Positions 220-57,315 of a DNA stretch of 64,000 nucleotides are shown one piece after another. The DNA lies in NCBI GenBank assembly GCA_031213475.1, contig JARUPZ010000010.1, forward strand, positions 10,153,917-10,217,916. The letters run 5' to 3'. The stretch is from Nereocystis luetkeana (taxonomy: Eukaryota; Sar; Phaeophyceae; Laminariales; Laminariaceae). The notes under the pieces are model-generated. The model was not told the DNA's origin. It was given only the letters and a program-made list of their open reading frames with translations, and made no database searches. Position numbers and translations under genes: made by a program. Numbering within the stretch: the first letter of the stretch is position 1; every line of letters begins with the position of its first letter.

Positions 220-227
220 TATTAATA
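220..227. other. TA-TTAA-TA insertion relative to copy 2
   Basis: Copy 1 reads TATTAATA where copy 2 (49871-49872) has only TA, in otherwise matching sequence. The difference is exactly 6 bp: a palindromic TTAA plus a duplicated TA. It is one of eight such paired sites in the window. Confidence 0.9.
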
Positions 228-753
228 GGATAAAAGGCTCAGAGAAGAAAAACGAATGCAAAATCTCCGTGGAGACCTACGCCTAGAGCCGGGGCGTTTG
301 CCGGTGTCTTTGGATTTCTGAACAACTGCCTCCACCCCGAGTAAATTGCTCCAGTTCACATACTCAGACCATCTCCCTCACGGGAGTTTGAGGGACCCCT
401 TCGGTCAAAATAATACGTACTTGAGTCCTTTGGGGAAAATGTTTGTTGTCTGTTTAGAGCAGCAATACTATTTCTGGTACAATAGCGCCGTACTCAGACC
501 ATCTCTCAACCAAGGTACAGGGTTTTCGTTATGGCCTCTATAAATAGGACGTGTTGGGGTCCTTCGATTTGCAGGGGGGGGCAGACGTTGGTATGTTTGC
601 ATCACCAAACGCATTTGCTCAGCAGCAAGAGTTAGGATCATTCCGGAGCTCCTGTTTGGTGTTTTCATCTTGCCGTGGCCGTGTACGGGTAGGACGCTAC
701 GGGCGGTCGAACTAGAGGCCCAGGTAGATTATCTCACCACAGTAGCGCTATTA

Positions 754-852
754 CGGGGGACCATAGTTAATAGGACCTATGTTCTACATAAAAACCTATA
801 TATTTCACCATTTTTACTAACAATATTTGGTCCTATTAACTATGGTCCCCCG
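754..852. mobile_element. 99-bp TIR element (MITE), TA target duplication
   Basis: The element begins CGGGGGACCATAG and ends in its exact reverse complement. The inverted repeats are perfect over 24 bp and enclose about 51 bp of AT-rich DNA. TA flanks it on both sides (752-753 and 853-854), the target duplication expected of Tc1/mariner-type transposons. There is no coding capacity, so it is a non-autonomous miniature element. It was present before unit U duplicated, since copy 2 has it too. Confidence 0.85.
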
Positions 853-854
853 TA

Positions 855-2030
855 GTAGTCGTTTTCGTCGATCTCCTAATTAAAACAATATCAGCAGCCT
901 GGGAAACTTCCATTTTTCAGGCTCGTTCATGTATATGGATAGCAGAGGTATGGGGAGTCGGTTTTTGGTAAGAGACCCTCTATGTACATGATGCAAAAGG
1001 CGTTGGATTAGTCCGGCGCCTGACACACTACAAAAATATGTACATGACCTAAGCTCTCTAAAGCTGCCAAGAGGGAACTAGTATGAGCATTAGAATTGGA
1101 AAAAAAATGTTTTCGGTAGGGAGTCATAAAAGGTCCAAAATTTGCCAGAAATAGTTTTGCAACTGAAAAAAAAACGGCTTGTTTTTTTTCAAAAGCCTGC
1201 TGTGCTTTTAATTTGTTTGCCCGAAGGCGCCCCAGAGCGGTGGGTGATGGGGCAATCTTCTTGTGTGTCCGGCGCCAGACTTATCCGACGACTTTTCCAT
1301 CACGAAAAATGCCTCGGACTAAAACACAACTCTCGATACCTCTGCTACCCATAGACGAGTTTGAAGAAATGAAGTTTCTCAGGCTGTAGCTGATGTATAC
1401 TGTTTTAATGATTTGACTCAGGTTTTCGCCGACAACGCCGAGCTTTACTAGTAGTAGGCGAACCTGCTTGGGCCTTTAGTTCCACCGTCCGTCCGCAGCA
1501 TCCTACTCCGCCACAGCAGAAAGTAGGTTTGGGGTGCTACCCGTTCGTCTACTGCCCGAAATACCCGACGGGTTTACCCGGACGGGCACTACCCGTCACC
1601 TAGTCCGAGTCCGACCCAAACCCCGCCGGGTACTTTGGGCCGGGTAACCGGGTACCCAGTTAGCAACGCGTCCCCGGGCTGAGTATCCCTGACAATCGCC
1701 CCAGAAACCCTCGAAAGACGCAAGCGATCTAGCAGGACTACACTCTCACAAGCACTCGTACTAGCTTTGGAGGTACAGTGCGTGCGTCAAGATGATGAGC
1801 TCGAAGGAATCGGCCAGTAGCAGCAGGAGGGAAGCAGCTACAGCAGTACCTCTGCGGAGATTTTGTTTCGTTTACACTGTATCCACGTGTACTACAGCAG
1901 TACTTAATACTGGTATAATACGTACCTGATATACGCGTCCAGTTGTTTTATTGCTCGGTTTATAAGGAGAGGACTGGCATGTCATCGTATTAAACACGAG
2001 AGGAGCAACATACACACGAAAGCAATCCAG
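855..2030. other. No gene seen; anonymous unit U sequence
   Basis: Both strands are broken by frequent stops, and the longest open frames (about 70 codons) show no protein-like pattern. A GC-rich stretch near 1540-1650 carries repeated CGGGTA/TACCCG motifs. Nothing else was identified. Confidence 0.6.
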
Positions 2031-2361: not shown

Positions 2362-2379
2362 TATTCATATTAAAAGAGA

Positions 2380-5300
2380 CACACAAGAGGAAGAGGAAGG
2401 AAGAAAGAAGGAGGCGTGCCCCCCCCGGAGCAGATACGATCGACAGTAGACAACACTAATGGAACAAAAGAACCAATACAACGACACAAGCAGAAAGGAC
2501 CACCAAGAGCAGGTGCGCCAACCACCAAGGCAAACAATCATGACATCTTCCATTTTGATAACGATAGGAATAAGAACGAAAGGACAGGAGGACAGAAAAA
2601 CCAAAGCGTAACAAAAGCACCTTCGAGGCAGCCGCAGCTGTTTATGGCACGAGTAGCAGAGACAAGTTCTACCCACTAATCGGCCTGGTACCTGGCTGAC
2701 CTGTCTGCCGTCTCCTTCCTGCTTTCGTCAACCGCGGTTTCCCTGTGGCCGTTGCCTCCCCTCTCCCCATCCCCTTGGATGCTCCCCACATAACGGATGC
2801 GAACGTCACTCGATTGGGTAGCCGCGCCTCGTTTTGCCGCGCCACGGCCCCTGCAAAGAAGAGCCGTCGTTGCAATGCTCAATCCGACTTGTCATCTTCG
2901 GGTCTCGGTCGCGTAATTTTTTGTTTTGCTCCGTGCGGGGCCATATGGTTGTACACACTGCTGTACCAGTATATGCATGCTGAACAATAGAAATAAAAAA
3001 ACTTGCTACCAATGACAAATCACCACCACGCGTCGCAGACAGGATGGCGGGGAGCGAGGCGGGGCGTTGCCCCACCCCGTACCCCATTCGCTGACAGCTC
3101 CGTGTGCGTGCCAAGCATTGCCTCTCCGACTCCGTGAATTATTGACAGGATGGATTTTTACAGCGTTTACAGCAACCAGACCAGAGTGGATCTGCCTGCC
3201 CTGCCGTTCATGCCGCCACATGCAGACAGCGCTTATGCAGAAGAACGAGTATTAGTATATAGCGGCAGTAGTAATGGTTTTAGTAGTAGTAGTAGTAGTA
3301 GTAGTAGTAGCGTAGTAGTAGTCTTAGGAGTCTTCTAGAGGTGTTCTCCTCCGAGCACTCGCGGCCATCGAGTACTCGCCGAAGCTGGGGGGGAAACCGG
3401 TGTACTCGCGAACGTTTGCGGCTATTGTTGGAGCGTAGCCGAGTACCCGCAGTTCCGACTACCCGGGTACCCGGGTACCCGGGACCGTATTTGACCTTGT
3501 TCGGTTCTTAACGTGGCATTGAACAGAGAGTAATTGGTAACGCTGCGGGGGCAACCTTTGACGGGAAACGTGCGGCAATGATCTACATGTATATTCCATA
3601 AACAGACCACAAGGTACTACGTACTGTACCCCATATTGACTAGTTTCTGTTGTGTTTTTTTTTCCCGAGAAGAATTTTTCTACTCCAGAGTTGTTGGAGC
3701 CTGTGCTGTGACCGCGGACTGAATTTTTGGCGACCAGTTAATATGATAACAATCAACACCAGCATCTCAACTGTACATACCTGGTATGTGTTATCGTGTG
3801 TTCAAAGCAGACGGATCAGGCATGATCGATGCTTAGAATAAGGTAGAGAGCGAATTCGATGCGCTACGCGCGTCGCGTGCAATGCTCTGTCGCTTGGCCA
3901 AGTCTCTGAATCCGACCGTGATTCGAGTAAAAGCAACCGTCCTCCTGTTGGTTGGCACGTTTTCATTCGATTGTATTGAGCCGCTGAGTATATGCACGAT
4001 TGACTACCATGACCACCGATGTTTGTCATGGCGGTGGCGGTGCTGTGTGTTCGTTTAGGGTGGGTACCTGTATCTCTCGATCGCCACTGGGGTCCTGAGC
4101 AACCGCTGATTTTTCCTGGTGATTTAGCCTCATTTTTCTGTGACAGGACCACTTTACGGTCCTCTCCACTCCATTAGTGTGTATATTACTATCACTATTC
4201 GTAATGACCTACCACCCTGCCGCCATTTGTGTAACCTGATTTTCAGACGTACTCAAACTCAGATTTAGGGTACTTTCTGACCCACTACGGAAGTGCTCTC
4301 TTATAGACTACGATGCAAGATGACGTCGTGTGCAGTACCGCGAGAACATGGGAAGAGCTCTTACTTGCACTATTTAATATCGTCCACGCTGCTGTTGGTG
4401 ACTGCTGCATGACCGGCATGGGCACGGACGACGCGGTGGACCACTACAGTAGTAGTTTAGTAGCGACCTCAACCGATAGAGCTGAATACAAGGATGGAGA
4501 TGCAGGAAAGCACAGCGGTGACCGCAATCCGGCAAATGGATCGTATGCTTTAGTTTATCGCCAGGGGCCGGGCGCAATAAGACGAACCGAGGGCACCGTG
4601 GCAACATGTAGGCAGCGCAGGCGTTTGACCTATGGGACACTCTTGGGAGATATATCATGGCCCGTACGTACTTAGTCATGTATATACAATAGCGAGACAT
4701 ACTGACAGCCTTGTTGTGATCAATCAACATGCGGCCTACCTTTACGAGTATTCGACGCCCTCCGCTGTTGCCCCGCTGCGCCCCCTGCGCCCGCTGCACA
4801 CACCGTCGGTCGTACCGCGCCGCAAAGGGGGAGCTCGACACGGAAGGTGAAGGCAATACTTCTGCCAAGACGGTGGTGGCCCGAGTGAAAGGTGTGTTTT
4901 TCTTAAGAGAGAGAGGGAAAGAGAGAGAGAGAGAGAGGCGATCGTCGTGTCGTGTTGACCCACGCAAGAGAAAAAACGCTTTACAAACTCTTACAAGTAA
5001 GGTTTTAGCGACGCAACGCAGTAGACGGTATCATACCAGGTGCCTGGTACCAGATGTACTGTTTGTACGAGAGCAATGAGTCAGCGCCCACGATTGAGTA
5101 CAATACGAAACAGATGAGGGTGTAAAACGTGACCCAGCCGCCTGGCCAGTAGTACTATGAAAAGGCATGATAACACCTAGCCGCCGACGTCAGTCAACTA
5201 CCGGTAGCTGAAGGCTTTTCAACCAATCGCTCCCTGCAAAAATCACCGCCAGATCTCTCGGGTTATATGACAAACACATGTGCAATTTCCGACACCAGAA

Positions 5301-6802
5301 AAATAGTACCGGAATATATTGTTGGATCGCCCAGTATTCTTATTGTCTTGAGCGATCCTTCGCCGTAGCAACAGCAGCAGCAATAATATGTACCAGGTGT
5401 AGATGCAAAGGCCCTGCTGCTGACGCCCCATCATTAAAACAAAGAGATTCCAAGACCGTTGAACAATGGAAGGGTCGGGTGAATACATCATTTACTCGTC
5501 GTCTAGAAAATACGCGGCTCTCAATATTTGAGGACCGACGACGACAGGGTTGTAAAACAATCGAGAGCAGCTCCGTGTTGGTGCGATACCGCGAGAGGCA
5601 GGTATTCAAGGAGTGCAGCTGTTCGTAACAAAGGTAACCATAGCGCGTCGCGGCGAAGAGGTCCCTTGTATTTCAGCGTCCCTTATCAGAGCTTTCCCCG
5701 CTTGAAAGGGTCCGGTCGTTCAAGGGACTACAACAGGGGTCCGGGACAACGGCATGCAGAGTAGGGAACGGGGAGACGGCGCACGGTGGTAAACCCCTAG
5801 TCCAAAGTCAACATGTGGCACTTGGGAGTATCTAACTAGCCTTCTAGCAATCTTTGTAGTGTTGTTCGAGCGGAATAAAGCGTGTTGGCCCATTGGGGTT
5901 CCTCTGGGAGTGTGGCGTTCTAGGAAACATGATGCGCAGATGTGAGAGGTCCCGTCCATGCCTTTTTCCGTTATCGACGGGTCCCTTTCAAGGGGTTAAC
6001 CAGCTGTGTACCTGGTGCATACTCGTACCGTGTATATTATTGCGGCGTACAGTACGTTAATACGATGGTCCCGCTCCGCTGTATACGTAGCACGTATTGC
6101 GTTGGCTCCTACCGAGCAGAGAGGAGGCAGAGCGACAAACCCTTGAAGGTCCCGAAGGGAGCAATGGTAGTTTGCACGGCACGGAGGGAGCTCATATCAC
6201 GAAACATAACATACCATGGTATACGTGTCAGCGGTTGTTGGGAGAGCGCGTTCGGACGTGGGGTAATATCATACCAGGTACGTATCAGCCTGGACCAACG
6301 GACTAGCGTATTGCCCTGGACCAACGGGTCAACGTATGAGTTGAGAGTACACGCTGGGGGGGTGCAAATGTTGGTTCCGATATACATTTTTTCTCGATCC
6401 GGTGTCCGAAGTGTCACACCCGAGTTTATCTCAACCGGCGAAGTGCTGCAAAGCTCTGGTGGCTTTCCGCACCGCGAGCAGTACAAATAGTAGCAGGAGA
6501 ATGATACTAGGTAACTGGCACGATTTCTACAGTCCTATAGCTCCAGAAACTAAAACAGGTACACTGTGGGGAGCGGTGCTCAAGGGTATTTCATCTCTGG
6601 CATTGCGTGACAGCAGCAAATTTGGATACCCGGTACCTGATACATACTATTAATGGTAGAGATTGGTACCAGATAAAAATATGGTCAACAGCGGTTTTTG
6701 GAATCCAGTGCGGCGCATCCCCCACCCCGCACACCCAACACTCACACACGGCAAACACACGACACGGTGTATCTCGCATGCCCCACACGCCACCACTCCA
6801 AC
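2380..6802. other. No gene identified; several modest open frames, (TAG)n and (GA)n tracts
   Basis: Open frames of 100-197 codons occur (for example near 4374-4967 minus and 5942-6490 plus). They have no recognisable motif, and the changes between the two U copies do not favour synonymous positions. A GA-rich stretch lies at 2384-2414, (TAG)n at 3279-3322 and (GA)n at 4905-4937. TACCWGGTA sites are at 3778 and 6272. No RNA gene was recognised. Confidence 0.5.
3676..3723 (+). mobile_element. Short stub resembling the LINE 3' end
   Basis: About 45 bp (CTCCAGAG..TTGGAGCCTG..CGCGGACTGAA) closely match the last bases before the repeat tail of the LINEs at 38247-38294 and, inverted, near 41580-41640. 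This is either an extreme 5' truncation of a LINE insertion or a non-autonomous element that borrowed the LINE tail. It is present in both U copies. Confidence 0.5.
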
Positions 6803-6973: not shown

Positions 6974-8156
6974 AGTATATGCTTACGCGTCAAATATTGC
7001 ACTGACCGCCGCAAAATCCCCACGTATCTTGTACGCTTTCACTGATTGCCCGATACCAGGTATTTCTTTACCACTTATTTTTCACCATTCCAAGGGATTT
7101 TTTTCCCCCTCATTGCAGGTGCAATATTTACTGTAGTACCGTGGCTTGGTCCCTGTAAAATTGACTGCTGTTGTACGAGTACACCGTACACGAGGCTCTC
7201 GCTATGTAACAAATCGCGCTGGTGGGTATTTGTAACTACCGTCAACCGTGTGCGTGCGATGCTGCGAGCTTCGATATATCTTCTCTTCGATATCTCGGTC
7301 TCGCCGTCGCAAACGCTTCCTCTCGACTACCTCCCTAGGCGGGTCGCCTTTAGCCTCTTCCACCCCGTCCACCTTGCCTCGTCTGGATACGAATATAGTA
7401 CAGCAGCGAGCGCAGCAGCAGTTTTGATACAGCAGTACAATACGGCAACCAACAAAAAAACGGCTTAAGAACGCCAGATACCATGTACCTTTCTTTTCGC
7501 GGGTTGATTACTTACCAGACTAGTAGCTGCAGTAGGTGTAGTTGTTGTATTACGGCAGTAATACTGCTGTACAATGGTACGAGGTGCGTACCAGTCTGCT
7601 CAGAAGCGAGCCTGGAAGAGATTGTATGCGTATATAGATATCATACATAAATACATAGACTACTAAAAGTACGTCGTACTGCTGTATACTGCTTGTATGT
7701 ATCCAAGAACTGAGTTTCTCTACAGTATAATGAGCATTCATAGGCTTGGATCAGTACTCAAACGATAATCGACGACACGAAGTAGGGTCGGGACAAGAAA
7801 ACCCCGACAGAAGCACCCACTACCAGTATCCAAACTCCAAAAACATCACTCACGATGCTGACAATCAATGTGTTTCACGCTGTTCGTTGAAAATCTCAAT
7901 CTAAAACGAGTAAAAATCCCTCAATTCCCAAACAGAATTCCCGAAAACAAATAAAAAGAGTTCCAAAACTTCATGTTACTGCTCTAGGGATTAATACGCC
8001 GTTATAGGTGCCGCTCACTACAAACCTCACCAAAAACAATCCTTTATGAAACATCAACATGTCTTTCTATAGGCTGTGGTAGAAGTAGAACCAGGTACCA
8101 ATTATTAAGGTGCGTAGAAGAAGAACAAGCGAGAGGTGTATTCCGTCCGCTTTCTT

Positions 8157-8290: not shown

Positions 8291-9255
8291 GCTCCGACTA
8301 TTAGTGCTACTGCTACGACTACTACTAAGAACACTAACAGTTCTGCCTTGACGAGGCAGAGATACGCGCACCGAGTGCAGTAGTACGTAACGAATGACAC
8401 AAACTACGAAACTACACCAGGACACAGGCAGGCTGGTTGAAGGAAAATGCCCCAAATGGTGTCCGCCACGAATGCCGCATGCAATAGCTACTTGGATGCT
8501 ACACATTTAGAAATATCATACTGACCGCCATGAACAGCGAAAGAGGACGACATAGGCAGATTTGGTTTTAAGGACCTAGGGCTGGCGCTAGCCGGCGAAT
8601 GTGTGCCCCTACCGACCACAGGCCTTAAAAAAGGCTGTCAGGAGTTTTGGCAGGAAGAAGCACTTACTTTTCATGAACGAGTCGGTTTCAGGTCCTCCAA
8701 GGCATGGCTGCAAAAATAGTTCGCGCATATATACGAAGAATATTGGCTGGGTGGGGCCAATCGCAAGACATGTTCAATACCCAAAGTTGATCCTACAATG
8801 AAATATCGTATTTTGTACACCCGTACCAAACAGAATTGACAAAGTTCACGCCACTTGTTGGAGCTGTGTGATTTTGTTCACACGTGTTCTATTAGCCCTT
8901 GCCAAATCGCCAACGAAAGGGGTTTAGTGTGTTTACCAGGTATGTATTTTCGCCGTAAAATTGGGATCCCCCAAGACCCAAACAGAATAATCACTAGCGC
9001 CAAATTACCTCACAAAAAATATACCTGGACTGTTTCTTTTAAACTATAGAGGCATCTGTTAACGGCTTGGCAGGGGCGCGTTATAGAATACGTGCAAAAA
9101 AACAGAATCTATCTCCAAAACACGGCGTCGACTTGCGACGCTAAAAAAAACGAATGCGGCTTGAATCAGCCTGTAGATAGTGGTGGAGAGGTGGCAAATG
9201 ATGGAGATGCACATATCGTGTATATAGGTATAATTTGAAGAAAAAAACAGCTGTA

Positions 9256-9278
9256 TGATCGAGGATATCCTCGAACGA
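9256..9278. repeat. 23-bp TA-flanked palindrome
   Basis: A 23-bp near-palindrome with a perfect 16-bp core TCGAGGATATCCTCGA, flanked by TA at 9254-9255 and 9279-9280. It belongs to the size series of TA-flanked palindromes seen across the window. A TACCTGGTA site follows at 9289. Confidence 0.5.
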
Positions 9279-9756
9279 TACATTTATGTACCTGGTACAT
9301 AACAAGCGCGAAAATCGAAGGTTATGTTCTGTAGGGTATGTACAAAACCATACCGGGGGTATTTTCCCGGGTACTTCCCGTACCCAGAACTTCTGGTTCG
9401 TAGCCTCAGGCAACGGTAGCGCAGACTGCACGGCAGTCTGTGGATGTAGTTTCAGGTCATGTATTATTGGCCTCCCACAGAGTAGGGGCAGAGAAAAAGT
9501 GAGCCTTGTGCGTCACCACGTACAACCTCAGATGTCAAGAGTCACATAATCCACAATAGGCACAGGTACCCACCGGTACGTAACTGTCGTTTGAAGAGAC
9601 CAAACGAACACCCTCCCTGGCTCTTTACATAACAGTGACGAACGAAAATATACAGAACGTAAGCCCTTGGCCTACATCAACCACGGAGTGATGACAAGAG
9701 GAAACTCACCCCGACGACGGCAAGCTAAAACCTCCCCCTCAATCCCACACAAACTA

Positions 9757-9780
9757 CTGCAATCGCGGGAAAGATTGCAG
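9757..9780. repeat. 24-bp TA-flanked hairpin
   Basis: CTGCAATC, an 8-bp spacer, then GATTGCAG: perfect 8-bp arms, flanked by TA on each side (9755-9756 and 9781-9782). With the TA included the stem is at least 11 bp. It looks like a minimal TIR element or an excision remnant. Also present in unit U copy 2. Confidence 0.55.
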
Positions 9781-9809
9781 TAGTCGCACCAAAAAAATAA
9801 AAACTAAGC

Positions 9810-11276
9810 CGAAAAATATCATGCCAGAGATCGCGAGTTTCCCCCGACAAAAACATTATTTCTGTCTCTTCCTACCACCGCCATAGATACACATATTGTA
9901 ACCGTAAACGCGAGATAGTATACATCCCTTTTCACACAGAAGGTATCAGGAACTAAAATTACCCGAAATATAGTCGCTTGTGATACAGAATAAACCCGAA
10001 AATACTCCTATTTTCTGTAGTATTTTGTCTCGATGTCCTGGATCATTTGATACAAGTATTGAATTTTTGGATGAGGCCTTCTGCGCGGCAGGGGTCCTCG
10101 TCCGGCATGTCGCCCCGCGATGAGTGGACGAGCGCACCGGCTGCTCTGCGCGGGGCTAGTACCTGCAAATGGACCCAAGTTACGACGTCGTTGTGTTAAT
10201 TACTGGGAGAGTGCTGTTACAGCCAGTATCGTTCATAATCTTCTTTTCTATTCGGGCTTGAGGTAGTTGAAGGGGTTCCGTGTTGCACAGCAGGGACGCA
10301 GCTGTTTGGATCTACATTGGATGTTTTTGTTATGTTTCCGGAGTGGTTGCACTGTTTCTTGTAGAGTCACATCATGAGGATTTAAGATGAATGAGTGCGG
10401 ATCTGGTACGGCATAGACACTAGTATGAGAATGTCGCAAGCAGGGGCAGGGGGGCTGTAAGATGTTCTGGGTGCTTGCGTCAAGCTCGACTAGATGTAAC
10501 TGTATGGGTTCTACGGATATGCGGCGGGTAAGTGTATTTCCCGCTTTGTGGGGTCCCAAATTGATTCGCATGAGAAAAGAAGGGGTGCATCCTATCTCTC
10601 TTGTTTTTCTTCTGCTGACCTTGAGAGAGCAAATCCCGTAACGTATGAAACAGGGCACATGTTTTCCTCTTGTATATTGTTGTTGGTTTTCGGAAAATTC
10701 ACTTGATAACTCCGCTGAGACGTATGAGATGGCTTAATATGTCTTGAGGAAAGCAAAGATCCGTCCCTACAGCCTGTTTGCTGCCAGGTACCAGGTATGC
10801 ATGTGGTAAGCACACACATATGCTGCACCCGTATGCTGCTTTACCGAGGCAGCTGCAGCCAAGCCAGCACCGTCACACGCTCATGACTATACGAGACACG
10901 GTAGGGAGACGACAGGAAGGGGTATGTTACTCTCGTACCTTCTACGTGCCAGTATATGAGACTGTAGCGCGAGTTCGAGCACGAGTACGATACACTTTTT
11001 CAACAACGTCTTTCATCTCGCAGTACTGCTGTACACCGCACTAAAAGTAAGATGTGTGAGAATAAAAAATGGCATCGCACGTATGAATACGAGTACAAAG
11101 CATATCTTACCTCGTATTCGTATGATATCGCCTGTACCTGCTTGTTGCTGGGTAGCCCTAAACAATGTCGAAAATAGTCCAGATTGGAGCCGTGGCGTGA
11201 GGCACCGAGGCTGAAGGACTAGCGGTGCGCTCGTGCTTTCGTCAGTAATGGCACCGCTCACTCGGTGGCTAGCTTC
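9810..11276. other. 1467-bp segment present only in unit U copy 1
   Basis: Copy 2 joins the flanking sequences directly at 59464/59465 with one base of shared sequence at the junction. The ends carry no inverted repeat and no target duplication, so a deletion from copy 2 is more likely than a transposon insertion into copy 1. It contains arm 2 of the inverted pair (10455-10570) and a TACCAGGTA site at 10789. No gene was recognised. Confidence 0.9.
10455..10570 (-). repeat. Diverged inverted pair, arm 2
   Basis: Partner of 8157-8290 on the opposite strand, lying inside the segment that unit U copy 2 lacks. The donor-like GTAAGT of arm 1 is GCAAGC here. Confidence 0.45.
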
Positions 11277-12660: not shown

Positions 12661-12667
12661 TAGAGCG

Positions 12668-15255
12668 ATGCGCGCAACAGGACGCAGGACGCGTGCTGAG
12701 ACAAATTCGGGACCCCGGGGTAAGCTCTGTAACGGCCGTACACCACCACACTACTTGCAGATATCGCCTCCACACCGTTTGTGATTGTCGTCTGTTTACA
12801 TTCATATATCCCCAGGACTCAAGAGCCGAGACGCTCGGCGGGGGAGGCGTCGATGGTTGCTTCCGGCAGTCGTGTCTGTGGCTGCCTTGATCGGCGTGGT
12901 CGGTGGTCAGGAAGTCGGTGCCGCCCCGCCGGGTGGCCTCAGCGACGGCGCGGCGGCACTTGAGAAGCGGCCAAACGCGGAGGCTGCCCGCGACAACAGG
13001 TTCCACCTCCTGATGGAGGGTGTGAACCTAACGCGACTCACCAACAACAAGCACGTTGTGCGCGCCAGGGCGTACAGCGAGCGCGAGAAGAAGGGAGACC
13101 TCCTTCGGGCAGAGTCGGTGAGCAACGAGGAATGAATGCGATAGTTTGCCTTCTCTGAAGACGTTTTCGTGGTGCGTATGGTGCTTACCGATACCTCGTG
13201 TTGTACAAGACCGTACCAAGCAAGCGTATCCTGTGTACTGTGTGACTTTTGTGTTTTGTCTTGGCGTTTATTTGCCAGCTTGACTCGCGTGTACCCTTAC
13301 TCAGCGGCCTTCTGGACAAGCCGCGGTCACAGGTAATTGGTGTGTGGTCACTTGTCCCCCCCCTCGTTACTTCGTTCTTATCGCACATAGTCCAACACAA
13401 GGGTAGGGTTTGCCAGTTTTTTCCCATTCATCTTCGTGTAATTTCGTTGTGTTTCAGGCTGCTCCTCGATCCCTTTACTGGCGTGACATACCCGACCGTG
13501 GAGTGTTCTCGAGATTGAGCCAGTCGGATGCCATTTATTCATACCTGTCTGTGCAGCAGTACCCCCTGCAAACCCTACAGAGGCTCTATGAACTGGCAAT
13601 GATAATACATTGGATACCATACTATTGATAACCCTACCATTCTTTCGAAAAAAGCAAACATCGTAAAATGCGGTGGATTGATTTGCGTTGAACCGCCGCC
13701 GCGGACAACTGACATTCGAAAAATTCAGGACGATGGCCTTCGCGAGGCACGGATGGGCATCACGGCCGGCCACATGATGACAGGGCCGCCGCAATCAGCG
13801 GCAAGCTGGGCGCCGACGGCGGTTTTTATTGCTGCTGGTTGTGTGGCTCTGTGTATTGCGGTATTCGTGCAGGGCGTGGCGCCCATCGACAGCGTCATGG
13901 ACAAGGCCATTAACCTCGTGGCAGCCCCCCCCGCCACCATCCACGCCAGGCCCGAGCCCTCCAATGTCGACTTTGGTGATTTGGAGATGGTGGTGAGTGG
14001 TTGGAAAGTGCTACTGTAGCGCCCTTGGGGACTCCACCAGACACAGACCAGGAGACACTTGCGATATGTATGCAAATACCTGGTACGTATTACACCGGTA
14101 CATCAGTTTATACTATTATTATAGGTGGAACAAGACAGCTGTAGCCTAAAGTAGTTGAGGTATAATGCGTACGAAACACAATACGAAATACAGTACGAAG
14201 TACAGTACTATTCCTATCATAGGTACAATGCCCAGGATTATATTAGGTATACAAAAGTACGTGCTTACGTTAAGAAGTACGAGGTACTCGTATTCACAGT
14301 ACTGTACATACTTGTTCCTACCCAGAGGTGGCGCGGGTGTTGGAAGCTCTGCGCTTTGGTGTAGTAGTTGCACAAGGCATTTTCCTGGGGCTTTTCTCCG
14401 GTCGCTGAAAGCACGATGTACTACATATGGATCGTGTGAGTGGGCAAAGACAACAGGTTGTGTGAGTGGACAAAGTGCCTGAAAATCGACGAGCAGTGCA
14501 AAATACTGAACCCTAGTCGTATGGTTAATATCAAGTAGAATGTGCCGGGGGGAGAAGGGAAGACGGCTGTGACCTGTCACCACGGCTTGTCTAGAAGGCC
14601 GCTCAGCGTAACACCCAATGGTATATATATATGCATACAGTATATATTCGATGGCAGGAAAAAAGTGAGGACGAGACTATACTTTTGAGGTACCCAGGGG
14701 TGGCCGGGTACTCACCTGGGTATTCACTCGTTATCTTCCCGGTAGAACATAACAACGGGTACATGTTACGTCACATGACGCATTGCCACTATCCAGTATG
14801 CTTGTCGATGATGTCACTCGGGTGCTGCAGCTCAAGGATCAATCCGGTGTAATATACTGTACCTAGAGTACGATCTTGTTAATGATCTGGAGTTCCAGTA
14901 AAATATACCGGACCGTTTTGTAGTCTCGGCTATACGACCCACCCGCTTGACCCTATCATACACCCTACTGAACAGACCATTGATAGAGTATATAACTGGT
15001 ACGTACGTATATGCTTCGAGTAGAAGAATAACAGCATACTAGTACGAAATGCCGAGTAGACCCATTTGCGCTGTGTGGTGCCGCCAACGACACCAAACAC
15101 CGAATATCCGCGTTTTCTCCGGCCAACAGACGCAGCATGTCTGGGTGACAGCGCAGCAGTGCGCTGCGAGCGTGGCCATGGCCAATGACCACCAGAAATG
15201 TCGAAGCGCCAACCACCTGAGGATGGTTGAGGAAGACTACGCGGCGCAGATGGCG
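12668..15255 (+). CDS. Membrane-anchored protein, exons 1-4 (probable N-terminal part of the USP gene)
   Basis: Four exons fit together in phase: 12668-12719, 12816-13117, 13729-13992 and 15130-15255, giving 248 codons from an ATG. Acceptors end in CCAG, TTCAG and ACAG; donors are GTAAGC, GTGAGC, GTGAGT and GTGAGC. Residues 18-30 are strongly basic (RRGRRR), followed by the hydrophobic run WLLPAVVSVAALIGVVGG (31-48), a signal peptide or signal anchor. A second hydrophobic helix lies at about 145-166 (AVFIAAGCVALCIAVFV). Exon 4 is charged and alpha-helical and could start a coiled coil. The exons are conserved in copy 2, with about six changes in 744 bp, fewer than in the introns. An alternative in-frame ATG at 12785 would skip exon 1. 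No family was recognised from this part alone. The link to the downstream protease exons is inferred from phase and coiled-coil continuity. Confidence 0.6.
14077..14085. other. TA-CCTGG-TA insertion relative to copy 2
   Basis: TACCTGGTA here; the duplicate has TA at 62242-62243 in matching sequence on both sides. The difference is exactly 7 bp. It lies in the intron between exons 3 and 4. Confidence 0.95.
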
Positions 15256-16561: not shown

Positions 16562-17674
16562 AGGTGGGGCGCGCTGCCACGAAGGTGAAGGCAGCGCCGT
16601 CTAAATCCCGGTCTCGGCGACTTGCAGTATAGCAAGCCGCAGCCGATTGTTGATGCTGTGTGTAGGTATGTTCTTCTTGTTCACAAGTGCCCAACAGCAG
16701 TAAAACAGGACCACATACTGCGATTTGATCTGTACAAGAAGATGTGTATCACAGCGGGGGACAGCTTTCTCGTGCCACGTACCGGTCGCCAATCCCAAGG
16801 CCTCCCCAGGAACGTGCGATTCGTTCACGCTCGCGCGTCCTTGTCTACGCTGATGCTCTACGCTCTGGGCTTGGTTGTGCGCTGTCCTTCAGCACGTGTC
16901 GTGCAAAAAGCAAGGCTGACTTTTTTTCAGCTATAGCTCAACGCCACATCATCGATACCGGCACTGCTTTTTATTTCATTTTTAAGGGGCAGCATCATAG
17001 AACGGGTTATTCGGTGGCGAAGTTTTTTTTCCCAATCACGGATTGGTTAATTTCCTAAAAATATTTTTTTCCCCCAGATAACGACCAGGCGACATCCTTT
17101 TTTTTTTACGTACTTAAACGAACCCATTCACACCCTTTAACAGTACGGTAGAGTCTACAATAGTACTTGTACAACGGTGCAGTTCCAGCCAGTTGTACAT
17201 TCGCTCTACTATTTCTAGTCAGCCCGAGACCTTGGCATTCGGTGCAAGGCACATATCATGCACTCCTCTCCTCCCCCCTCCCCCTACATCATATCTCTGG
17301 TATATATATATACAAGGGATGTAGGTAACGTTAAATCCCGGGGGCGTCGCAAGGCGAAAAAGGTGTCACAGGTGACGCACGTATAGTTCTTGGCGGAAAC
17401 GTGAGCCATGGGTTAGCGTATTGCTCAAAGGAAAGAGTAATAGCAGTCATCAGGGACTGAGTACTACTATTTCTGTGGTAATTGCTACATTACATGCATT
17501 CGGCACCATGGGTTGCTACTATATGTATTGTTACTATACAGCACTACCACTACTGCGCAGATGTAATACAGGCAGAAGGAGCATGCACTCTACAAAATAC
17601 TATTTGGTATTAAATACCTGGTACAATACTACTGACCGCTATCTATACTACTAAGTATTACCACTCTGAGCGTA

Positions 17675-29350: not shown

Positions 29351-29691
29351 TGTGAAAAAAACAAAGTCGTCGACCCGCAAGGAAAAAGGACGGTTTCAAA
29401 ACGCGTGAAAAAACTGCCACGGTGCCACCATACACCGGGCCTAAACCCCAAAATCGATTTCCATTACGCACCCCGCAAATAGCTTCTCAAATTGTATGAC
29501 AAAAATCTTAGGGATTGACGCGAAAAAACAATAGTCGTTGACCCGCTAGGAAAAAGGACGGTTTCAAAACGTGTGAAACAAACTGCCACCATGCCACCAT
29601 ACACCGGGCCTAACCCCAAAACCGATTTCCTTTGCGCACTCCGCAAATAGCAGCTCAAATTGTACCAGGTATGACACAAATCTTAGGGATT
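29351..29691. repeat. Tandem duplication of a ~170-bp unit
   Basis: Unit 1 (29351-29517) and unit 2 (29519-29691) share GACCCGC(A/T)AGGAAAAAGG, a CACCATACACCGGGCC motif and the rest at about 88% identity. Unit 2 carries an extra TACCAGGTA where unit 1 has TA. Function unknown. Confidence 0.85.
29663..29671. other. TA-CCAGG-TA insertion relative to the adjacent tandem unit
   Basis: AAATTG-TACCAGGTA-TGAC in unit 2 against AAATTG-TA-TGAC in unit 1 (29495-29496): an exact 7-bp insertion, independent of the U duplication. Confidence 0.9.
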
Positions 29692-32276
29692 GCAAATATA
29701 TTTGGTGTTTTGTATTTTATCCTCAGTTTTCAGTTACTGTATGGGCGGAGAGCCACTTCAGTCGGAACATATGGCCCGGAGGTACCCCCCTTTACTGCAG
29801 TAGCGCATGGCTCGATGACCCCCTAAAATATACCAAGGTACAATAGTAGCTCTACTGACAACAATAGCTCTATCAATAGCGACTATTATTACTGACATCA
29901 GGCACACGATGCGGTAGGGTAGTTGTACAGTCGTACCTAGCTCCTCCCCCTCTGCGTGACAGCAGGTACACGATGCCGTTGGCTAGGTGTACAATCGTTC
30001 CCGCCCCCCCTCCCACATCCGCAATCGTCCTGACTTGTCCTCCGAACAAGACCTATGCTCACCAAGCAGCTCAAACAACCACCAACCGCAAGTTGCGGCG
30101 GGAGCCATAAAATTTGTATCCCTCACCGAAGCAAATAATGGGCGAAGAGAAAACTACGGTACGACAAAAATAGAACGGCTGTATACACCGTACAGCCGCC
30201 CCTCGCCTCGCCCCACAGTATCACCCCCAGCAGCAGCAACACCACCGCCACCGCATTGTGGTCTACGTGCTTGGTCCGCGGGCTGAAGGCGAAAATTGCG
30301 CTGGAGCACAGCAGCAGTACGCAACAGCACTAAAGAAACCGGGAGTTGAGAAATTAAGAAGCTGTGGCTCGACTTTTCCCCGAAACATGAAAAATATATT
30401 TTTGAATTATTTGTATACCGGAATTCGCCCTACTGCCTGTGAGCCCAAATTAAAGTGTATTAAGAGTAGTGTCCTACTGAGGTGTGTTGTTGGTACACAA
30501 AAAAAACGCCACGCATATCCTTGTCAGCCCCACCCCTGACCGCCTCTCTCCCACCGCGTTGCCCAGCTACAGTACGAGCAAACACCACCAGTTAGTGGAT
30601 GCCGGGTTCTCCGCACGGCAGCAAGAAGAGGCCGATTATGTGCCAACCAAAACTGCACCAGAGAGGAAAATATTCAAGCAACTTCGTACTTCGACTTTGA
30701 GTTGGGCAAGTCGAAAGAAGAATGAACCCTGCTTATTACAGTAGCAAAATAGCGCCTTTTTGTTCGCTTTCACGCGGATCAATCAACTCTTCTTCATTGA
30801 CAACCTATTTATCCTACTTGTTTGGTGTAATGTAGTATGGGGCCATGTTTTGCCGTGGTGAAAGGGCTAACACTGCAAAATGATCCCACACAAATTCCTA
30901 GAAATCTGTCCTAAATAAAGGTGGGCGAGGTTCAGTTCCAAAGGAGTAAAAACTTCAATACTGTGATGAAGACAAACATAAACCCTAACTCTGATTCCGA
31001 GTATACCAGTATTTCCTACTATAATTGGTAATCGCCTTTCCTATCGGAGTTTTTTTTTTCAGATATATGTCGCAAAGTTTGGGTTTTTGGAACATCGCAT
31101 CAAGTTACGGAGGCGTTCTGTTACAAATTTGTGAAAGCGCAAATAGCAGGAAAGTTAACTTTCACGTACCAGAATAAAAAAAGACAAGGGAAATGTGGGA
31201 GATGAAACATTTGCGCGAAAAACATGTGGACATCATGGCAAAAAAGCTCTACGATAAAACAGGTCCCAAGCGCGGGCTTAGCCGTCAAGGATTTCAGCCA
31301 GCAGTGAGCGAGCGGTTTCCGTACAATGCACGCGGGCGATCTTCCTGTACCTTACTAGTATACCTGCACGCTTATATAACTACTGTAATCACGGTGATAA
31401 CTAGTACCAGGTACGTACAGCAGTATGTTTGGTCGAGTCAGCCTCCTCATCAGTGCCTTGAACAAAAGCACCGACCACAGACCCCGCCGAGCCTGGCCAA
31501 CCCAACCAAAGCGTCTACATACTCCGTCTATACTCGCAGCATCCCCCCTCCTGCTACCAACAACTTGCCTGCCACCGCTATCTGCCACCGACACCAAAAC
31601 CACCATTGGGTACTGCTGTGTATAGCGCGAACATCTCCGCTTCTCATGCGCTATCTATACGCTGTACGAGGCATACCTCCCTCTCCCCTTCTCCCCCCGG
31701 AGCCAACCAGGGCAGCTGCAAAACCTCCCTACTGCTAGCCCTATCCCGGCGCGGCACAAAATAGGAGAAGTGGGTGGAGGGGGAAACGAAAGTAAAAAGA
31801 CTGACATGTATGCGCGTACGCAATGCAAGGAAGTAAAATGAGCGTACGGCTTCCACTCAGCGGCCAAAGCACATTCGTCCCAGCAGCAGCAGCAGGATAG
31901 AACAAAACGTTCTGAAATAAAGTAATCGCCGACCCACTTTCGACAGGAATAAACTAAATAAAAAGTAACAATAAAAACATTATTTTGCCTTCGACAGCAT
32001 ATATATTCAACGCTACCAGTTTCGCCACGCTGGAGTGGTTGATTTTCGCTCCGTAGAAGGTCCCAGACTTTCCCTGTGCCATGTATGTGTTGGAATATCT
32101 GTGAGATGGGAAGGCGTTTCGCATCCCGGGTCAGGCGAAACAATGTCATCGGCCGCGGAAACGTCGCTCCCTTGTTGGAAACAAAATTACGAGGTTACTG
32201 ACTGCACTCCCTCACATGATACCGTCATTTCTACCCGTCGACAACCAGCGCACTTAATGTCCTATTCGTGTGGCTT
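29692..32276. other. Intergenic; one dispersed repeat, no gene seen
   Basis: The repeat at 30525-30805 falls here; see its own entry. Elsewhere the open frames are short and unlike proteins. A TACCAGGTA site is at 31405. Confidence 0.5.
30525..30805 (+). repeat. Dispersed repeat family C, copy 1
   Basis: Matches 32870-33135 in direct orientation with about 70% identity. Shared landmarks include GTTGCCCAGCTACAGTA near the start and TTTCACGCGG near the end. No terminal repeats and no coding sequence were seen. Confidence 0.6.
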
Positions 32277-35446: not shown

Positions 35447-35536
35447 TAAGGCAACTGCTCTAGTGGAGACCGTGCTGTCGACTGCTGCTAAACTAGCACC
35501 TCATACCAGTCAAAACAAGGGCCGCTGGGCTCGTGT

Positions 35537-39181: not shown

Positions 39182-41116
39182 CTCAACTCAGTTGTTGTCT
39201 TCTGAGAAGTAAGGGCGAGGACACCAGGGAGGGGGTGTGTCTCTAGGCAATATCTTGCGTGGTACTATGCCATACCCGCCTTTTCTATGTTACCCTTTGT
39301 GACACAGATACAGCTATATATATCAGAAAATACGAACTACCAGGTACGACTTCTAATGGTGACGTAGAGTGTATATAATCTAGGGATCGAGCGCGAGGGG
39401 GAGTTGTGGTGCATTCGGTACAAACCTCCGCGTCTCCTTGTCGGTATGTGTACCTGGTATGGTAGATGGTAGATACGTTGTGTGTCCTTCTGCGGTGGTG
39501 GGGCAATACAGCAAGCTGCATGACCGTTGGTAAGCAGCAATTATTTTCGGCGGATTGTTGGGCATCGATACATACTACAGTGCAAAACTATCGCCGCTAA
39601 GTTCACTGATTTACGCGAGGCTCAGTCAGCACAGCTAGCAGTAGTAGTGTGTACGACGACGACAACAATCAGCAGGAGGCAGTAACGTATTGAATTTCCA
39701 GGCACGTACGAGGTACTGCATCAGTGGTGTGTGTACGAGTATGCGCTCGCTTCTTTTCTCGCCCCCATTCAGCTTCTCTATTCTATGAACTTGCTTCGAA
39801 GATCAGAGTACTACTGCTATTTGTTACTGCTGTTGTACAGGAGCACTGATTGCACTGTAGTATGTACGAGCACTGATTAATGTGCTCCTCACGATGAAAT
39901 GCCAACCAACACGGCAGCAGCACAGTGTAACCTGGCCTCCAGCGTCCAGCCACGTCTCTATGAATATATTGCGTACCTGTACCATAATAACTATAATACG
40001 CACAGCAGTAGTATCGTTGGCGTCGGTTTCAAAGCACATTTTGGAACAATCCGACCCCCGGCGCCCCACAGGCAGGATAATGCCGCGCAACTATTGCCAC
40101 TCCCAGAATGCCCCGTCGGGTACGTCGTACCACATGCGCCTTGATCGCCACATCGATTCTAGACCAACCCGCAAGCAACGAATGGGACGGACATTTTGGA
40201 GTTGGCTGCCGGCCTGCCGTGCAGCGCTCAAGGAAGGTTGGCCTGGCACAGAGGACCAACAGAGGAGGTAAGAGGTTATAGACTCCATGCGAGCTCCAGA
40301 AACCCGTTTTCGCGACTAGGCGACAAAGCGGCGGTCCTTGTTTTGCGTTTTCTTGTTTTATAACAACATAACAACAACAACAGTCTTGGACTGCAGCCAG
40401 TCACGACGACGCGAAACGTTATTCTTACTCTCTCTGACCAGGTACGTGGAGTGCTCTCGTTATCGTGCACCACTTCAGGCGCAGAAGAACGCAAGGGCAG
40501 TATACTGCTGAGCTGACTCTGCGCCTTGCAATGTGACCCTGTCGTGGGCCATCTCGTCAAACCCAGGGAGCATCGTTCGTGATGTTACCTACTGTAGTAC
40601 TATCTGGTCACAACCCCTGGGGAGCATCGTTCGTAGTGTTACCTGGTACCGGTAGGTGCTGCTTGCTGCACAGAAGATACACTCGCACCCTCGTCGGGAA
40701 TCTATAGACAGGGATACGCTGTGCAGTGGGAAGGTCGTTGGGGTATGCCAAGTCCTTGGGCCCTCGCGCGCATCGTCATGCCAGCGCGGTCCGCAAGCGC
40801 CCACCCCGGATCCAAGAGATCCAGCCCAGCTGCCAGGGCCGTTTGTTTTTGTTCGTTTTTGCGCAACTTCCCCCCGGATAAGGCAGGTCTTTCGAAGGTG
40901 GTTGAAACCCCCCTCTACTGTGAGAAATCTCGCCGCATGTTGTACTACTGCTGTACCTCGAACATACAGCAGCAGTAGAGTAGGCAGCTCGTTCTGCAAG
41001 ACCCGAGCCGGACACAACAAGGACTGCGTTGAGAAGGCATCAGAGGGGGCTATAGTGATGCACCGGTCACGTTGCGTTGCCGATGATGTTGCACTACTGC
41101 GCGCATCGGCTTGAGC
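39182..41116. other. No gene firmly identified
   Basis: TACCWGGTA sites lie at 39338, 39451 and 40640. A frame ending near 40269 before GTAAGAG (reading MGRTFWSWLPACRAALKEG) could be an exon, but no partner was found. A short direct repeat (GGGAGCATCGTTCGT) recurs at 40567 and 40620. Nothing else was recognised. Confidence 0.4.
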
Positions 41117-41389
41117 ATGCCTTCTGGACCCGGTGGTCTCGTGAAGCATTTCTTGGAACAGCAGGAGCAGCAGGTCAGGCTAGCGATACACCTGGTACAC
41201 CTGGTACAGCAGTACGCCGTTTATGAGTTGCAGAAATACCTCATGACACACTTACAACTGCCATCACAACCCTCCCCTGCTTGCGACTGGCGCAGGGCAA
41301 TGCCGCCCGTGCTGGGACTCAATGTGAATAAACTCGGGCGGGAACTCAAGGCTCATGACGATGAAGAGCTTGAGGTGCGAAGCGTTTGA
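41117..41389 (+). CDS. Candidate 90-residue ORF, unknown function
   Basis: Begins MPSGPGGLVKHFLEQQEQQ and ends GRELKAHDDEELEVRSV before TGA, 50 bp from the tail of LINE copy 2. The sequence is charged and helix-prone. It includes two overlapping ACCTGGTAC motifs, which encode part of the middle. No family was recognised and no second copy is available to test conservation. Confidence 0.25.
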   Translation: MPSGPGGLVKHFLEQQEQQVRLAIHLVHLVQQYAVYELQKYLMTHLQLPSQPSPACDWRRAMPPVLGLNVNKLGRELKAHDDEELEVRSV

Positions 41390-41440: not shown

Positions 41441-43149
<1,709 letters not shown>

Positions 43150-43812: not shown

Positions 43813-43874
43813 TACTGAAATACTATTGCAGTACCAGGTATTCACTATTTTGAGACGGAAATCTAGCCGTCTTA

Positions 43875-46057: not shown

Positions 46058-46533
46058 CGGGATGTGGGTAACTTGAAATCCCGGGGGCGTCGCAAGGCGG
46101 AAAGGGAGTCACAGGTATTACCCGTAGAGCTGCTATTGGCGGAATCGGGAGCAATCGGTTAGCGTATTGGTCGAAGGAAAGAGTGATAGTAGTCGGCAGG
46201 AACTGAGTACTATTCTTTCTGTGGTGGATATCACACTACTACAGTACATGTACGCGGTACCATGGGTTGACTACTATACCGTCACTCCCTATACACCACT
46301 ACCCCTACTATATGTGGTACAGGTAGGGGCAGCATGCACTCTGCAAAATACTACCTGGTACACTACTTCTACTGCTACGACTACTACCTATACTACAAAG
46401 TACTGCTGCTGACGAAACGCCCATACAATGTACAGACAACCTCGTGGTGAGCAGAGAGGTCAAATGACCACGCGGTACTATGGGTTGGGGCATGGCTGCT
46501 ATAATGTTCCTATACTTCACCACCAGTAATACG

Positions 46534-46540: not shown

Positions 46541-48394
46541 GATGCAGTGCAGGTAGAAACAGCATGAGTGAATACTACACTACCATACCTGCTGCTACTA
46601 CTGCTCCTGTCATACTAAAACTTACATACAACGGCGACGTAGCACGAAAGTCGTACCATGAGTAGGGGGCATGACCACTATACTGTTACTCTTGATGTAC
46701 ATCACTACTACTACTACTACTTCGCATACTTCTTCTTAGATGTTCTGTAGTAAAGGTAGAAGCAGCATGCACGCTACAAATTACCTGGTACTAGACCACT
46801 ACGACTACTATTAATAACGATTTTGTAAATGTACAGGCTACGTATTAGATGCGGTTGAGGGCATCTACTGCTATTGGCCAGGTAGAAGCATGCAGAGCTA
46901 GACGGACCGAGGGAGCCAGTTTTGTGGTCACGTATGTACGTGTTCGGTGTGAGGTGTGTGGTGTACGTCAAAGGGCTAGGTGAAACATGTGTGACGCTCG
47001 ACAGACGTGTATCGTTGCTGGTGCTGTATCTGCTGCTGCTGAGGTTGATCAAATACGGGCGATTTCAAAATGATTGAAATTTTCAACGCAGAGAAAATTC
47101 AGCAGAGAAAAGTATCGTGCTCGTGCGGGATTGATTATTGTTGACTGCTCGCCACGACTCGCGAGCTCACGGGTGGGTTTCCAAGCCTGTTGCACCGAAA
47201 AAACAAATACACGAGACCACGATCACTCGATTGCTCGACCTGGTGAACACTGCACACACATACTATATGAATACTGCTGTTGTACAGCTGCTGCTATTGT
47301 AGTGAACTCCGTGGCTGCGCATTGCGTTTGAAATACGTACGGAGGACGTGTGAGTTCGGACGAATCGTCGTCCTGCCCCTACGCAGCTTCCAACTAATTG
47401 CACCTTTATCGAGATTATATATGTGGTCGTTCCTACTTCCTTGGTTGACAGGAATCACGGCCCACACACGCACACACACAAAATGCGCTAGCCGTGGCCG
47501 TTACAAAAGAGAGTGCTTGATGAACGACTGCTGCTGTGCCGTGGCTGCCTCTGTAGAGAGCTCGAGGGACGGTGGGATCAGACATGATACAGCAGCAGAC
47601 AGCAACAGACAAAAATATTTGAAATGATGGGGTCTCCATTGTCCTGCTTGGCTCTAGCAGGTCGGAATTATTCCCAGTAGTTATTTGCCAGAACTCGCGA
47701 CTTCGGAGGCCCAGAGCACGCGCCACGGACCTCGCCCGGGGCTCGCATTTGCACCGTGGTGTGCACGCGGGCTCCCTGTGTGCCACGCAGCCTAGAGTGC
47801 GAGAGAAGACCCGCGGCCGAACGAGAAAAGTAAAGCATTCCGGAAAAAAAGTCAATTTGATACTAAGTAATATACCAATTACTTCATAATTTTTTACCTG
47901 CGTGTCAAAAACAGCGTCAACAGTACAGAAAGGCCAACCGAAAACAGCACTACGTAATATTAATAGTAGTAGGAACCAGCTCCTCTGTATTTGTTGACGT
48001 ACAGGTATACATACAGTTGGGGCACGATGAAAAAGTTATCTGCATCTATTTGTCATGAAAAAAATCTAATGAATGTCAAATAAGTACTCACGGCAACAGC
48101 ACAGCCGACTCGTGGCAATACCCAGTAAAAATCTACTCGTACAGTAGCCTCTTCACGTCAATAGGTAGCAACATGTTTACACACGATTGAGGGCATCATG
48201 AAAAAAATATCTGCACCTGTCCTGAAATGTTTCTCTCTACGTTTAAATGACTGACTCCCAAAAGCAGTATAATATGCTCATGGTTAGAGCAATAGAATCG
48301 TGGCAACGGCAGCACAGTACTACCTACTACCAATGCTACTACTACTATTGCTACTATGCTAGATGCACACCGAAACTGGGTGGGTAGAGGCAGA

Positions 48395-53373: not shown

Positions 53374-54559
53374 ATTTTGGCGACCAGTTAATATGATAAC
53401 AATCAACACCAGCATATCAACTGTACATACCTGGTATGTGTTATCGTGTGTTCAAAGCAGACGGATCAGGCATGATCGATGCTTAGAATAAGGTAGAGAG
53501 CGAATTCGATGCGCTACGCGCGTCGCGTGCAATGCTCTGTCGCTTGGCCAAGTCTCTGAATCCGGCCGTGATTCGAGTAAAAGCAACCGTCCTCCTGTTG
53601 TTTGGCACGTTTTCATTCGATTGTATTGAGCCGCTGAGTATATGCACGATTGACTACCATGACCACCGATGTTTGTCATGGCGGTGGCGGTGCTGTGTGT
53701 TCGTTTAGGGTGGGTACCTGTATCTCTCGATCGCCACTGGGGTCCTCAGCAACCGCTGATTTTTCCTGGTGATTTAGCCTCATTTTTCTGTGACAGGACC
53801 ACTTTACGGTCCTCTCCACTCCATTAGTGTGCATATTACTATTACTATTCGTAATGACCTACCACCCTGCCGCCATTTGTGTAACCTGATTTTCAGACGT
53901 ACTCAAACTCAGATTTAGGGTACTTTCTGACCCACTACGGAAGTGCTCTCTTAAAGACTACGATGCAAGATGACGTCGCATGCAGTACCGCGAGAACATG
54001 GGAAGAGCTCTTACTTGCACTATTTAATATCGTCCACGCTGCTGTTGGTGACTGCTGCATGACCGGCATGGGCACGGACGACGCGGTGGACCACTACAGT
54101 AGTAGTTTAGTAGCGACCTCAACCGATAGAGCTGAATACAAGGATGGAGATGTAGGAAAGCACAGCGGTGACCGCAATCCGGCAAACGGATCGTATGCTT
54201 TAGTTTATCGCCAGGGGCCGGGCGCAATAAGACGAACCGAGGGCACCGTGGCAACATGTAGGCAGCGCAGGCGTTTGACCTATGGGACACTCTTGGGAGA
54301 TATATCATGACCCGTACGTACTTAGTCATGTATATACAATAGCGAGACATACTGACAGCCTTGTTGTGATCAATCAACATGCGGCCTACCTTTACGAGTA
54401 TTCGACGCCCTCCGCTATTGCCCCGCTGCGCCCCCTGCGCCCGCTGCACACACCGTCGGTCGTACCGCGCCGCAAAGGGGGAGCTCGACACGGAAGGGAA
54501 AGGCAATACTTCTGCCAAGACGGTGGTGGCCCGAGTGAAAGGTGTGTTTTTCTCAAGAG

Positions 54560-54590
<31 letters not shown>

Positions 54591-56625: not shown

Positions 56626-57306
56626 AGTATATGCTTACGCGTCAAATATTGCACTGACCGCCGCAAAATCCCCACGTATTTTGTCCGCTTTCACTGATTG
56701 CCCGATACCAGGTATGTCTTTACCACTTATTTTCACCATTCCAAGGGATTTTTTTCCCCCTCATTGCAGGTGCATTATTTACTGTAGTACCGCGGCTTGG
56801 TCCCTGTAAAATTGACTGCTGTTGTACGAGTACACCGTACACGAGGCTCTCGCTATGTAACAAATCGCGCTGGTGGGTATTTGTAACTACCGTCAATCGT
56901 GTGCGTGCGATGCTGCGAGCTTCGATATATCTTCTCTTCGATATCTCGGTCTCGCCGTCGCAAACGCTTCCTCTCGACTACCTCCCTAGGCGGGTCGCCT
57001 TTAGCCTCTTCCACCCCGTCCACCTTGCCTCGTCTGGATACGAATATAGTACAGCAGCGAGCGCAGCAGCAGTTTTGATACAGCAGTACAATACGGCAAC
57101 CAACAAAAAGTCGGCTTAAGAACGCCAGATACCATGTACCTTTCTTTTCGCGGGTTGATTACTTACCAGACTAGTAGCTGCAGTAGGTGTAGTTGTTGTA
57201 TTACGGCAGTAATACTGTTGTACAATGGTACGAGGTACGTACCAGTCTGCTCAGAAGCGAGCCTGGAAGAGATTGTATGCGTATATAGATATCATACATA
57301 AATACA

Positions 57307-57315
57307 TACCTGGTA
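57307..57315. other. TA-CCTGG-TA insertion relative to copy 1
   Basis: TACCTGGTA here against TA at 7656-7657 in copy 1, with matching flanks. The insertion is in copy 2 this time, so the process acts in both directions after the duplication. Confidence 0.95.

Follow-up and report, generated by a model that had tools for sequence, protein, structure and literature searches.

The nine-base word TACCWGGTA occurs 182,395 times in the 465,085,209-base assembly of the brown alga Nereocystis luetkeana and is probably the end-joined footprint left after excision of a TA-inserting cut-and-paste transposon of the Tc1/mariner type. An original prediction, made from a window of 64,000 bases (C10:10153917-10217916), held that the word is a recurrent and recent 7-bp insertion into TA and compared it with Tc1/mariner excision scars. 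The recurrent insertion was borne out by the genome count, by alignments of paralogues and by a target-site signature, and an excision scar is the best explanation we have of the form of the insertion, the target motif and the scale. The original observation is real and was understated; the phenomenon is far larger than the window could show.

The A and T forms of TACCWGGTA are reverse complements and represent one 9-mer on either strand. The window contains 22 exact copies, where at least 22 had been claimed, while 100 dinucleotide-preserving shuffles gave 0.46 (sd 0.66, maximum 2), close to the 0.5 originally expected. The coordinates given for individual copies were all correct except 46353, which is actually 46352, and the five copies said to lie in the second copy of the duplicated unit U are indeed there. 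The 22 copies are not all independent: four pairs are common to both U copies, and three scars, at 17615, 46352 and 46782, sit in related repeat units. When U copy 2 and three smaller blocks of duplicated sequence are taken out, the count falls to 17; an order-3 Markov model predicts 0.55. The 25 distinct single-base neighbours of the word, the centre A to T change being omitted, occur 0 to 6 times each in the window. With simple words filtered out, TACCWGGTA is the second most over-represented 9-mer of the window and CTATTAATA ranks first. In the whole assembly its density is 392 per Mb and its count is 105 times that of the reversed pattern ATGGWCCAT (1,744), which contradicts a genome-wide frequency no higher than in shuffled sequence. 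Positions in the window are collected in the table.

Table. Scars, empty sites and related features of the window.
Feature	Position	Strand	Remark
scar TACCTGGTA, U copy 1	14077..14085	.	TA at 62242 in copy 2
empty TA, partner of 14077	62242..62243	.	alignment
scar TACCTGGTA, U copy 2	57307..57315	.	TA at 7656 in copy 1
empty TA, partner of 57307	7656..7657	.	alignment
scar TACCAGGTA, 168-bp tandem repeat	29663..29671	.	TA at 29495, neighbouring unit
empty TA, partner of 29663	29495..29496	.	alignment
scar TACCTGGTA	3778..3786	.	exact match; shared with 53428
scar TACCAGGTA	6272..6280	.	exact match; shared with 55925
scar TACCAGGTA	7054..7062	.	exact match; shared with 56706
scar TACCAGGTA	8934..8942	.	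other U copy is TGCCAGGTA, a substitution
scar TACCTGGTA	9289..9297	.	exact match; shared with 58945
scar TACCAGGTA	10789..10797	.	inside segment missing from U copy 2
scar TACCTGGTA	17615..17623	.	repeat-family member
scar TACCAGGTA	31405..31413	.	exact match
scar TACCAGGTA	39338..39346	.	exact match
scar TACCTGGTA	39451..39459	.	exact match
scar TACCTGGTA	40640..40648	.	one TA common with TACCGGTA at 40647
scar TACCAGGTA	41785..41793	.	exact match
scar TACCAGGTA	43832..43840	.	exact match
scar TACCTGGTA	46352..46360	.	repeat-family member
scar TACCTGGTA	46782..46790	.	repeat-family member
scar TACCTGGTA, U copy 2	53428..53436	.	exact match
scar TACCAGGTA, U copy 2	55925..55933	.	exact match
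scar TACCAGGTA, U copy 2	56706..56714	.	exact match
scar TACCTGGTA, U copy 2	58945..58953	.	exact match
possible variant scar TA-CCAGGTGCCTGG-TA	5034..5049	.	also 54686
possible variant scar TA-CCAGGTG-TA	5391..5401	.	also 55043
two possible variant scars TA-CACCTGG-TA with common TA	41187..41206	.	
second class TA-TTAA-TA	220..227	.	TA in other U copy
MITE TA-[TTACGGGGGACCATAG...]-TA, proposed TTAA-scar donor	749..857	.	inverted ends; also 50395-50503

Ten paralogous block pairs were aligned within the window. At the three places where a duplicate had been said to keep plain TA (14077/62242, 57307/7656 and 29663/29495) the copies differ by a pure 7-bp gap, and the flanks align on both sides of it, so the statement that nothing else had changed holds. 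Within the window each of the three differences can be read either as a gain or as an exact loss. The U copies (1-15835 and 49655-64000) differ at 241 aligned positions (179 + 62 in two blocks), and two of the three differences are therefore recent. The U duplication is ~98% identical, and a 1,466-bp segment (9810-11275) is absent from copy 2.

All-against-all BLAST was carried out on a 324-kb sample consisting of the window, C1:1-200000, five dispersed 10-kb stretches and C1:218801-228800 (L043). Insertions with poor flanks or internal gaps were skipped, and 581 distinct insertions of 3-60 bp were obtained. Forty of them are 7 bp long. Fourteen of these are readable as a duplication of TA, whereas each of the other fifteen dinucleotides is possible in 0 to 5 cases; 12 are exactly of the CCWGG type, two of which (L043 5156 and 7021) lie in tandem copies and may be a single event. 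One 14-bp insertion consists of two tandem scars. An earlier pass over 314 kb identified the scar in 8 of 34 7-bp insertions. In a stricter column test of the 40 scars with a paralogue in the 314 kb, 10 were shared only, 5 faced a paralogue with a cleanly empty TA, 8 had a counterpart altered through substitutions and 11 showed only other gapped states. Gain by whole insertion rather than by stepwise substitution is thus upheld by the 12 exact insertions but not by the 8 scars with a substitution-type copy, which may reflect decay or another history. Taken case by case, gain and exact loss are equally unpolarised in the sample; at C1:48194, however, plain TA is seen in six of the seven partners aligned, a pattern in favour of gain over loss there. 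The scar-dense L043 consists of diverged tandem units, with a large inverted repeat at its start, and several of its scars vary among the units.

Target preference was analysed in a 295-kb sample which omits the initial 5 kb of C1 as well as window 49655-64000; for model counts, 3,243 simple-repeat bases were masked. The sample contains 98 exact scars; nested ones were dropped and the profile was built from the remaining 87. The reconstructed empty site has T or A at position -7, A at -6, A or T at -3 and a central purine-TA-pyrimidine. Frequencies at -7 are 0.48 for T and 0.05 for G (control 0.26 and 0.23), and a purine is found at -1 with a frequency of 0.80 (control 0.61). The dinucleotide TA is present at -7 in 43 of 174 flanks versus 7% in the control; the corresponding p value of 7e-13 exaggerates the significance, since related repeats contribute some of the sites. 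YTAR was observed at none of the 98 scars (control 14%) and RTAY at 60 (control 37%). Both a few bases between duplicated TA copies and a symmetric target preference around TA, as expected for Tc1/mariner footprints, are thus found at TACCWGGTA sites. Judged from the aligned sites, the symmetric motif is a mark expected of an integrating enzyme, not of a random break.

The scar is sharply delimited. Its one-change neighbours are present in 1 to 15 copies each in the 295 kb, and the commonest, TACGAGGTA with 15, may represent a different TA-X-TA class. The neighbours total 117, compared with 36 to 57 for six control words; from this excess the mean decay is put, on a rough estimate, at some 5-8% per site. 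The centre of CC-x-GG is A or T in 98 cases and C or G in 7. Two other CC-x-GG forms exceed their modelled numbers, CCAGGG (8 versus 0.7; reversed control 1) and CCATGG (6 versus 0.4; reversed control 3). TACCGGTA was rejected as a scar class, with 12 occurrences versus 11 of the reversed control and hence no excess. Scar pairs spaced by exactly 7 bp, of the form TACCWGGTACCWGGTA, number 8 among the first 100 genome places listed and 4 among the 98 scars of the sample, where, with 16,214 TA dinucleotides, chance is estimated to give ~1% nested pairs. By its sequence such a pair has one scar lying at the border of another. Nine virus-collection stretches with a nested scar are otherwise scar-free, save one in L035.

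Uniformity and target preference bear directly on other explanations. Filler of a few bases, templated or not, that break repair adds at TA with no transposon involved is improbable. The inserts are short, several TA-X-TA classes exist and no donor was found in our searches, all as filler would have it; but filler should vary, while CC-x-GG inserts are nearly all alike and their flank motif is symmetric and class-specific. Programmed DNA elimination, in which a germline-limited element is cut from the sequenced genome and a TA-CCWGG-TA junction is left, would account for abundant scars without a donor in the assembly, and the eliminated sequences of ciliates are also bounded by TA. It is nevertheless still less probable than filler, since we know of no nuclear dimorphism in brown algae, the TA-bounded eliminations known to us restore one TA, and the differences between U copies so alike need recent insertion. 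That a palindromic protein-binding site was retained and spread by selection is hard to believe even though the 9-mer is a near-perfect palindrome, given the genome-wide copy number and the exact 7-bp differences at TA; gains as whole insertions speak against the substitution gains that such a site requires. Base composition, microsatellite slippage or dispersal within other repeats is just as hard to believe: the window is rich in TA/CAG-type simple repeats and some scars were copied along with their repeat, but shuffles and the order-3 model yield only ~0.5 copies, the word keeps its rank after simple words are filtered out, paralogues differ by insertion alone, and the genome count with its reversed control speaks against it.

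If the scar is an excision footprint, the element would begin with 5'-CCAGG or CCTGG, and the cut would leave single strands from both element ends on the flanks. Overhangs of five or four bases would pair CC with GG around a central A-A or T-T mismatch; mismatch repair would then place A or T at the centre, i.e. W, and the break would be closed by end joining. This model would explain the palindrome, the W and the uniformity together. A three-base CCA overhang, joined without pairing, would be expected to give mixed products and was rejected, since the TACCATGGTA it predicts to be common was found 6 times versus 98 for CCWGG. The rarity of TACCATGGTA favours, and does not prove, a four- or five-base overhang. 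Each move would leave one scar and add no copy, so that scars could become very numerous even if the element has few copies.

The Sleeping Beauty scar, TAC(A/T)GTA, is the product of an A-A mismatch at its centre. The terminal repeat of Mos1 begins with CCAGGTG and in this resembles the possible variant scars TA-CCAGGTG-TA of the table; Mos1 scars, TACCATA/TATGGTA, differ from CCWGG, and the mariner transposase has no match here (the Transposase_1 control was silent). For Sleeping Beauty and mariner transposases a first cut three bases inside the element is described, with the footprint given by the joined 3' overhangs; that of Sleeping Beauty is identical to its three-base overhang, and the Mos1 cut is likewise staggered by three bases (PMC7827188). 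A duplicated TA target, two single-strand overhangs and a footprint equal to the overhang would be common to Sleeping Beauty as described there (PMC7827188) and the CCWGG system. However, the overhang is of three bases in the former and would be of five in the latter, whose product is near-uniform over all its genomic places and for which no element was found. The original prediction called a five-base palindromic scar at such a density unusual, and CCWGG does fall outside the 2-4 bp reported for Tc1/mariner footprints (PMC7913693). Plant Stowaway-like MITEs are described as leaving a TA duplication with short pieces of element ends, sealed by end joining (PMC4561436), and share with the CCWGG scars the TA duplication and the short end-joined footprint. 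Excision products of DNA transposons reported in rice are mixed, 8 of 94 being perfect and others often having deletions or filler (PMC4423477), whereas CCWGG scars are uniform. In another brown alga, Ectocarpus, Mariner-Tc1 is among the most diverse DNA transposons, with 17 families and almost 12,000 mostly non-autonomous copies; in the main text of that paper the word "excision" occurs 0 times, and we noted no description of scars (PMC12477816). The kind of scar is thus already known, but its five-base length, its number, the uniform repair and the missing donor are unusual, and it is not readily classed as an ordinary Tc1/mariner footprint. We found no account of a TACCWGGTA scar in the openly accessible literature searched, and papers containing either 9-mer have titles unrelated to transposons.

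A complete CCWGG element and a matching transposase, called for by the original prediction, were both sought and neither was found. No elements with TACCWGG ends were detected in ~264 kb. Inspection of inverted ends next to TA (window and C1:4001-200000), of recurrent sequence following TACCWGG, TACCA and TACCT, of long insertions between repeat copies and of a scar-dense 10 kb, read for local hopping, revealed no CCWGG donor. Of 140 TACCAGG copies in the sample, 98 continue with TA, and the remainder is estimated to be about the chance number. A scar followed by CCWGG and a non-T base is present at 2,086 genome places, versus 10 for the reversed control; the 100 places listed have no common continuation or element end, and many resemble decayed or variant scars. 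Searches for transposase domains gave no matches for DDE_3 (PF13358; 30 candidates scored, control positive in 3 of 14 genomes) or Transposase_1 (PF01359; 3 candidates, control silent), and 28 matches among 48 candidates, 15 of the 28 without internal stop, for DDE_1 (PF03184; control silent). At two DDE_1 loci with a confirmed domain, inspection of 4.2-4.5 kb each revealed no inverted ends (12 to 14 bases) next to TA; ends lying farther out would escape this span. From their sequence the DDE_1 loci are a possible candidate source of transposase, none of them tied to the scar. A 1.3-kb TA-flanked element at C1:153754-155062 has CCGTG ends, inverted in 18 of 20 bases (CCGTGGAACACG), and an internal ORF without a Pfam match.

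Tentatively, and with rather less confidence than in the footprint itself, we propose a very low-copy, extrachromosomal or lost TA-targeting transposon which, with a five-base stagger and near-deterministic annealing, would have made ~180,000 moves in the lineage. The genome would then be a near-complete, base-exact transposition counter with almost no copies of the element left. Copyless cut-and-paste moves, which studies of copy number cannot count, would be directly countable at ~390 scars per Mb. A large share of frame-shifting 7-bp insertions in this genome would stem from the scars, whose sharp sequence would reveal how an unseen transposase staggers its cut and what repair makes of it. 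Scars that far outnumber donors would bear on the survival of cut-and-paste elements in organisms with a long haploid phase, because there no homologous chromosome can restore the donor site.

A second class, TA-TTAA-TA, has 93,112 genomic copies versus 10,689 of the reversed pattern. It appears as a 6-bp insertion into TA in 8 cases in the 314- and 324-kb comparisons, and TA is empty at 9 of 30 sites with a paralogue and also at window 220. The flanks of TTAA scars favour TAC-TA-GTA, to which TAC microsatellites may contribute, and this target motif differs from that of the CCWGG class. A 105-bp MITE family with ends TTACGGGGGACCATAG / TTACGGGGGACC is flanked by TA at window 749-857 and 50395-50503 and at C1:15615-15723. 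For the last copy, related copies at C1:17281, C1:163736 and L033 have the empty site CTATG, and the one at C1:15107 reads CTGTG. Short length, inverted ends, TA duplication and an empty site, as in Stowaway-like MITEs, are all present. The MITE begins with TTA and is plausibly the element behind the TTAA scars; overhangs of three bases (TTA) that pair through TA would give the TTAA footprint. This case illustrates a possible link between a class of scars and its element.

Three more inserts are in excess in the 295 kb: CAGCAG (TACAGCAGTA), 46 versus 2.1 expected; CGAG (TACGAGTA), 61 versus 14.2; and CGTACG, 13 versus 0.3. CAGCAG and CGAG were not accepted as proved scars, each having a single empty TA among 29 and 28 sites with a paralogue, respectively. 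Independent overhang repair is a poor fit for the CAGCAG class and was rejected (CAGCTG 0 and CTGCAG 3, versus 46). At C1:115010, C1:135565 and window 20310 the same TA reads TATTAATA or TACTGTA depending on the repeat copy, as though two elements had used the site or repair had followed two routes. Among other repeats, C1:1-200000 is rich in TAACCC-type units, mainly in its first 5 kb, and a LINE at window 34064-37300 has endonuclease and reverse transcriptase ORFs with relatives in Ectocarpus. Its reverse transcriptase (35537-37300) is 54-56% identical to its two best named matches, both from Ectocarpus, and unnamed relatives reach 81%.
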